Positions 56,262 through 57,504 of a stretch of 64,000 nt of DNA are shown in pieces. The notes under the pieces were generated by a model. The model was not told the origin of the DNA and made no database searches. It saw only the letters and a list, made by a program, of their open reading frames with translations. Origin of the DNA: Prochlorococcus sp. AG-347-E23 (GTDB lineage Bacteria > Cyanobacteriota > Cyanobacteriia > PCC-6307 > Cyanobiaceae); assembly GCA_003281685.1 (NCBI GenBank), contig QCBH01000002.1, positions 94,373-158,372 of the forward strand, written 5' to 3'. The translations under genes were made by a program, and so were the position numbers. Positions within the stretch are counted from its first letter, which is position 1, and each line of letters begins with the position of its first letter.

Positions 56262-57353
56262 TTATAAGTGAATCATTTGTGAAGAGCCTAAGAATGACTG
56301 ATTAAATTTATCTAAATGTGTCGCACTTATAAAACATTGACTATTTTTGCCAACAGAATTTAATAACAAATTTTGCCTGGTTAAATCTAACTCCGCTAAG
56401 ACATCATCCAAGATAAGTATTGGAGGGACATTTAGTGTTTTAGTTAATAGATCTAGTTCAGCCATCTTTAAAGCCAAGATAAAAGTCCTTTGCTGTCCTG
56501 ATGAACCATATTTTCTTACTGAAACGTCATTAATTAGAAACTCAAAATCATCACGATGAGGGCCGAAATTACATTTACCAGTTAATGCTTCTGTTGAACG
56601 CTGATTAAATAGTTGTTCTGCTATTTTTTTACTAATAACTTCTTCTTCTTCTTCTTCTGGACTTATATTTTGTATCCCAGAAAGATAATTTATGCTTATT
56701 TGCTCTGTAGATTTACTTAAACGATTATGCCAATATTCAACATATGGTTGTATTTTTAATAAAGCTCTTCTTCTTCGCCTAAAAATTCTTGTACTTATTA
56801 TTGACATTTGAATATCAAAGCTTTCAACAATATCTGAGGATTGTGTTTTCAAGAAAGTTTCCGAACGCCAAAAATGACTTCTTTGCTTTAAGAGCCTGTT
56901 AAACCTACTTATAAGATCTAAGTATACTGGTTCAAGCTGAGATACAACTTTATCAATCCATGTTCTTCGATAACTGGGTTCACTCCTAACAATATCTATA
57001 TCATTAGAGCAGAAACATACACTCCGAATATAATTCTTTATTTCACTCTGTTTTTTTAAGATTGATTCATTGACGTAGATTCTTTTAGAGCCTTTTCGGA
57101 ATAAATTTAACTTTAAATCGTCTTTAAAATTTATTTGTCCTATGACTACTGCCATATCGCTGTCATTCTCTATTAAATCTTTATCGCTTAATGCTCTATT
57201 AGATTTTAATTGACTTAAAAATTCAACCGATTCAAGTAAATTTGACTTGCCAATACCATTACAACCAAGAACAATTGCTCTTTGCTCTTTTAGATCAATT
57301 TCAAAACTTTTATGGTTTCGAAAATTTTTAATTTTTAATTTATTTAAAAAAAT
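56262..57353 (-). CDS. recF: DNA replication and repair protein RecF (start corrected)
   Basis: RecF is an SMC/ABC-type ATPase that loads RecA at gaps. The track frame starts at M57155 and lacks the P-loop, but the minus frame is open upstream and encodes IFLNKLKIKNFRNHKSFEID and Walker A GCNGIGKSN. From the ATT at 57353 the protein would be 363 residues, the normal RecF length. Further motifs are SGQQRTFILALKMAEL (ABC signature) and ILDDVLAELD (Walker B). There is no ATG, GTG or TTG between the upstream stop and the P-loop. An ATG at 57370 is 1 base out of frame at an A8T7 tract (see findings). Confidence 0.85.
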   Translation of the reverse strand: MFLNKLKIKNFRNHKSFEIDLKEQRAIVLGCNGIGKSNLLESVEFLSQLKSNRALSDKDLIENDSDMAVVIGQINFKDDLKLNLFRKGSKRIYVNESILKKQSEIKNYIRSVCFCSNDIDIVRSEPSYRRTWIDKVVSQLEPVYLDLISRFNRLLKQRSHFWRSETFLKTQSSDIVESFDIQMSIISTRIFRRRRRALLKIQPYVEYWHNRLSKSTEQISINYLSGIQNISPEEEEEEVISKKIAEQLFNQRSTEALTGKCNFGPHRDDFEFLINDVSVRKYGSSGQQRTFILALKMAELDLLTKTLNVPPILILDDVLAELDLTRQNLLLNSVGKNSQCFISATHLDKFNQSFLGSSQMIHL

Positions 57354-57430
57354 TTTTTTTGTGCATTCATTAATTAAATTAGCTAAGTTTAAAATATTTA
57401 GATTTTCTTTAAAGAAATTGAAAAATTAAA

Positions 57431-57504
57431 GGGCATGTAGCTCAGTTGGATAGAGCATCAGATTCCGATTCTGAGAGTCGGGGGTTCGAATCCCTCCATG
57501 CTCG
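57431..57504 (+). tRNA. trnR-CCG: tRNA-Arg (anticodon CCG)
   Basis: GGGCATG pairs with CATGCTC (one G-U), discriminator G. The D arm is GCTCAGTTGGATAGAGC, the anticodon stem TCAGA/TCTGA encloses TTCCGAT, giving CCG, and the T arm is GGGGGTTCGAATCCCTC. Length is 74 nt. CCA is not encoded. It is between recF and the GNAT gene. Confidence 0.96.

Follow-up and report, generated by a model that had tools for sequence, protein, structure and literature searches.

The window analyzed here, a stretch of 64,000 nucleotides from Prochlorococcus sp. AG-347-E23 (contig QCBH01000002.1), harbors a recF gene on its minus strand and, divergent from it, a tRNA-Arg(CCG) gene (Table 1). Reading of the window revealed that the recF frame extends from a TAA at 57428-57426 to a stop codon ending at position 56262 and that its first ATG, GTG, or TTG is an ATG at 57155-57153, well downstream of the Walker A motif (57266-57243). 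This confirms the claim of an earlier note on this DNA that no canonical start codon lies between the upstream TAA and the P-loop. The earlier note had also placed the start typical of the RecF family on the ATT at 57353, and the assignment holds. In a profile search, the translation from this codon gave a full-length match to TIGR00611 (residues 3 to 345 counted from the ATT, E = 5e-83) with 279 bits, above the curated cutoff of 172 and with Walker A included, which identifies the product as RecF. Numbered from the ATT, Walker A (GCNGIGKS) comprises residues 30 to 37; an SSGQQRT signature and a Walker B motif (LILDDVLAELD) are also present in the translation, and Pfam SMC_N matches with E = 5e-18. 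The ATG at 57155 was rejected as recF start. As had been predicted for a protein without the start region, the P-loop is lost, and the SMC_N match drops to 26.3 bits, below the 40-bit cutoff.

The ATT (57353-57351) lies within a tract of eight A (57360-57353) followed by seven T (57352-57346), and an ATG at 57370-57368 would enter the recF frame upon insertion of one base; both observations agree with the previous description of the locus. Homopolymers as such are frequent in this DNA, and the window contains 30 runs of at least eight A or T and two junctions of at least six A with at least six T.

Table 1. Features of the recF start region in the window.
Feature	Position	Strand	Remarks
recF coding sequence from ATT	56262..57353	-	363 codons plus stop; TIGR00611 match; Walker A, signature, and Walker B present
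First canonical in-frame start (ATG) of recF	57153..57155	-	Would give 297 amino acids without Walker A
A8T7 homopolymer junction at recF start	57346..57360	-	Tract not kept across relatives
Inferred recF start codon ATT (AUU)	57351..57353	-	Conserved in genus and family; canonical outside the family
Out-of-frame ATG near recF	57368..57370	-	Noted earlier; not conserved among relatives
TAGCTAA element (family form TA(C/G)CTTA)	57379..57385	-	Spacing to start codon fixed; spacing to tRNA variable
In-frame TAA stop upstream of recF ATT	57426..57428	-	From frame reading
Divergent tRNA-Arg(CCG)	57431..57504	+	77 bp from recF start; arrangement kept in family

Start codon of recF in cyanobacteria

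A recF match was present in 255 of 266 genomes of the same genus, whose named relatives are Prochlorococcus, and the start region was read in a subset of these as loci (80 named). ATT occupied the start codon in all 110 loci of a first set and in all 122 distinct loci after removal of duplicates; in 88 same-genus loci, there was no canonical start from the upstream stop to Walker A. Among 62 loci from other genera of the family, which comprises marine and related picocyanobacteria, 58 carried ATT (35 loci) or ATC (23 loci), while 4 carried ATG and none ATA. Thirty additional family genomes were inspected, and ATT or ATC was found in 19. In two genera, labeled g9 and g49, an ATG was located one to six codons farther upstream. 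Other cyanobacterial RecF proteins share the family, the N terminus, and the position of the start, but this codon is canonical in each of 55 cyanobacteria belonging to other families (ATG in 35, GTG in 18, and TTG in 2). The ATT/ATC is thus aligned with the canonical start of the homologs, and no canonical start that would yield the whole protein is conserved. GC-richer relatives do contain an in-frame TTG or GTG downstream of the ATT/ATC and upstream of Walker A; its place varies, and initiation there would cost conserved residues of strand 1. Comparison among relatives establishes the position of the putative start, its conservation, its range in the family, and the lack of a conserved alternative. 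The ATT start that the earlier note had considered is therefore strongly supported.

In the single-contig same-genus genome G026, the recF match (C1:1138167-1139255) is split across frames and contains two internal stops, which suggests either frameshift errors or a decaying recF.

In 101 same-genus recF genes without gaps, 20 isoleucine columns are conserved, codon 1 among them. Codon 1 was the only one of these columns with a single codon (ATT in 101 of 101), and the others mixed ATT, ATC, and ATA; overall isoleucine codon usage was 55% ATT, 34% ATA, and 11% ATC. As a control for the start gap, long frames (1,094 in total) were analyzed across 1.2 Mb of the close relative G044. Between the upstream stop and the earliest canonical start, these frames had a median of 4 codons and a 99th percentile of 40 codons, and recF ranked first with 90 codons. 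Because this is the longest start-free 5' stretch of all these frames, the lack of an early canonical start in recF is more than chance.

In a tree of RecF, no fewer than four switches between a canonical and an ATT/ATC start are required, and ATT and ATC were interchanged at least six times; this tree has incomplete outgroup rows and several unsettled basal forks, and the state in g9 and g49 could be ancestral or reverted. The ATG starts of loci L194, L214, and L228 are nested within ATT/ATC clades. They reflect independent changes from ATT/ATC to ATG (in genomes G322, G315, and G312, respectively) and provide natural material for dosage tests. As the best reading of these sequences, AUU/AUC appears to have replaced a canonical recF start at an early stage of the marine picocyanobacterial family and to have persisted since.

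Leader region and divergent tRNA gene

In 202 of 203 loci of the family, recF and tRNA-Arg(CCG) are divergently oriented. Between the two genes lies a TA(C/G)CTTA-like element at a fixed distance from the recF start codon, namely 25 nt here, 24 to 27 nt in the genus, and 21 to 22 nt in other genera, whereas its distance to the tRNA gene varies among family loci between 8 and 187 nt. Since only the spacing to recF is constant, a role as tRNA-Arg promoter was rejected. No match to the element was detected in the 55 outgroup recF loci. Judging from this pattern, the element is probably the -10 region of recF or an operator; a -10 region at this position would leave a recF leader of about 15 nt.

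A Shine-Dalgarno sequence was not evident at recF, with a corresponding 4-mer in only 10 of 122 same-genus loci and 13 of 91 family loci, and an extended Shine-Dalgarno pairing of the Staphylococcus aureus type was likewise not found. Single-sequence folds of the recF leader yielded nothing useful.

Proposed weak initiation and alternative explanations

Taken as a whole, we consider it likely, with a probability of roughly 85%, that recF is intact and starts with AUU at position 57353, that this start arose by an early switch in the family and was kept, and that it is a weak start limiting RecF. The mRNA would carry a short leader without a Shine-Dalgarno sequence, downstream of the TA(C/G)CTTA element, and the initiator tRNA would presumably place formylmethionine at the AUU or AUC. 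Initiation factor 3 (IF3) destabilizes initiation complexes on such non-canonical codons (PMC5472188 and references therein). By analogy to infC and pcnB of Escherichia coli, initiation at recF may be inefficient because IF3 discriminates against AUU/AUC, and this discrimination would likely be the means by which RecF is lowered; the AUU/AUC start probably keeps RecF synthesis low. A counterpoint to this reading is that the non-canonical starts of S. aureus rely on an extended Shine-Dalgarno sequence, which is absent at recF. The infC gene of the source genome itself (L287) appears to start with an ATG directly after a stop codon. The IF3 loop would therefore differ from that of E. coli, and the classic autoregulation of IF3 via AUU seems to be absent in the source genome.

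A serious rival is that the AUU/AUC start is real but near-neutral, that is, a frozen accident and not a control device. RecF may be required in very small amounts, and the repeated swaps between ATT and ATC would fit such a scenario. However, ATG is one substitution away and was regained in three nested reversions, yet ATT/ATC was kept in most genera. The AT-rich genus also shows no ATA at the recF start, although ATA accounts for about a third of its isoleucine codons. The persistence of ATT/ATC with ATG so close argues for selection, and conservation over dozens of genera supports selection for weak initiation in particular. A frozen accident is a real possibility that we nevertheless regard as the less favored one.

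Much less probable is that the polymerase slips at A8T7, as proposed earlier, or that ribosomes shift frame by -1 there; either event would join the MNAQKK peptide to recF and could serve as a switch, either on/off or of rate. The tract could plausibly be slippery: downstream of the ATG at 57370 it offers the heptamer A AAA AAA in frame, 81 of the 122 loci from the genus retain A8T7, and the AT-rich endosymbionts Buchnera and Blochmannia are known to show poly(A) slippage (cited in PMC5009743). In the remaining third of the same-genus loci (41 of 122), however, the tract is interrupted or of different length, with A runs of 1 to 5, 7, or 9, and it is absent at the recF start in the 62 loci of other family genera, including GC-richer genera that retain ATT/ATC. 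The ATG equivalent to 57370 is often lost (as in L057, L062, L078, L083, and L104), and tract bases vary among relatives while the ATT stays invariant. A conserved slippery tract with a joined frame was thus not observed, and since both the tract and the ATG vary among relatives, a mechanism based on the tract cannot be general.

Translation from an unrecognized upstream in-frame site, or read-through from farther upstream, is slightly less credible still. A minority of recF loci do contain an upstream in-frame ATG, at 4, 7, 27, 28, or 35 codons, but 146 of the 180 ATT/ATC loci have none back to the upstream stop, and in 23 loci in-frame stops occur 2 to 5 codons upstream of the start codon. 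The distant ATGs lie in the region of the divergent tRNA, and codon-position conservation begins at the recF ATT, with no protein-like conservation upstream of it. These upstream starts were rejected as sporadic and unconserved.

Homopolymers are prone to sequencing error, and the start tract consists of 15 bases of two homopolymers, but an error in sequencing or assembly that dropped a base or altered the start can practically be dismissed because orthologs repeat the same sequence in more than 100 independently sequenced genomes, single-contig ones included. Of the three explanations offered in the earlier note, ortholog comparison therefore retains the ATT start and leads to rejection of sequencing error and, as a general mechanism, of slippage.

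Known non-canonical starts and further candidate genes

Few bacterial genes with non-canonical starts have been characterized. In E. coli, infC (encoding IF3) and pcnB start with AUU, which lowers their synthesis (as cited in PMC1780047, PMC4245954, and PMC5472188). Like these, recF is a chromosomal gene with an AUU start; unlike E. coli infC, which autoregulates IF3, it has no link to translation and no Shine-Dalgarno sequence. The Streptomyces gene sigR starts with GTC and is repressed by IF3, and the codon is kept in 32 of 34 species, with GTT in the other two (PMC5472188). Both starts are conserved and non-canonical, and sigR is a stress-response gene; sigR has a strong ribosome-binding site (AGGAGGTG), whereas recF has none. 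The start of sigR is conserved within one genus and that of recF in nearly a family, and the IF3 effect was tested for sigR only. In S. aureus, cvfC1 (AUU) and ccpN (AUA) have conserved starts that cut yield and need extended Shine-Dalgarno pairing, and infC is also among the known non-canonical starts of this species (PMC13009471). The recF start resembles those of cvfC1 and ccpN in being a conserved AUU-type codon but lacks their Shine-Dalgarno context.

A search of the available literature found no report of a non-canonical start for recF or in picocyanobacteria; a review treats recF as core in these organisms and, in its accessible part, does not comment on the start (PMC5101192). Non-canonical starts are already known as a kind, and recF is a new member that is unusual in the breadth of its conservation, its context without a Shine-Dalgarno sequence, and its role in DNA repair. 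The most abundant phototrophs carry this gene as part of their core repair equipment, with AUU/AUC kept over dozens of genera, and a natural series of ATG, GTG, TTG, ATT, and ATC exists at one and the same codon. AUU initiation without a Shine-Dalgarno sequence would help to test start choice by cyanobacterial ribosomes. Gene callers restricted to ATG, GTG, and TTG would miss recF or return it without the ATP-binding P-loop.

The control in G044 revealed further same-genus frames without a usable canonical start; their gene names were assigned by reading the translations. For mpg (3-methyladenine DNA glycosylase; C1:601428-602012, plus strand), there is no canonical start for 60 codons. The putative start is ATA in 30 of 30 same-genus loci (L348 to L377; L440 in the source genome), with a stop two codons upstream in most, and mpg is likely a second repair gene with a non-canonical start. 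A yfiH-like gene for a multicopper oxidase/laccase-domain protein (C1:352448-353257, plus strand; L378 to L407, with L402 in the source genome) apparently starts with ATT (ATT in 28, ATC in 1, and ATA in 1 of 30 loci), preceded by a conserved AGGAG. Likewise, comB, encoding a 2-phosphosulfolactate phosphatase-like protein (C1:267271-268035, minus strand; L408 to L437), apparently starts with ATT (ATT in 29 and ATC in 1 of 30 loci) and is preceded by an AAAGGA-like sequence. Going by their sequences, at least these three genes look similar to recF in their start. It is conceivable, though rather doubtful, that recF with its AUU/AUC start and no Shine-Dalgarno sequence represents a conserved IF3-dependent brake on the capacity for recombination repair in marine picocyanobacteria and belongs to a small set of genes, together with mpg (AUA), comB, and yfiH (both AUU), whose expression level would be governed by start-codon discrimination and which would be truncated in standard annotation. 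Weaker, possible candidates for non-canonical starts are a crtR-like gene (C1:599927-600958, plus strand) and a trmH-like gene (C1:1229160-1230032, plus strand) of G044, with 76 and 55 codons without a canonical start, respectively.
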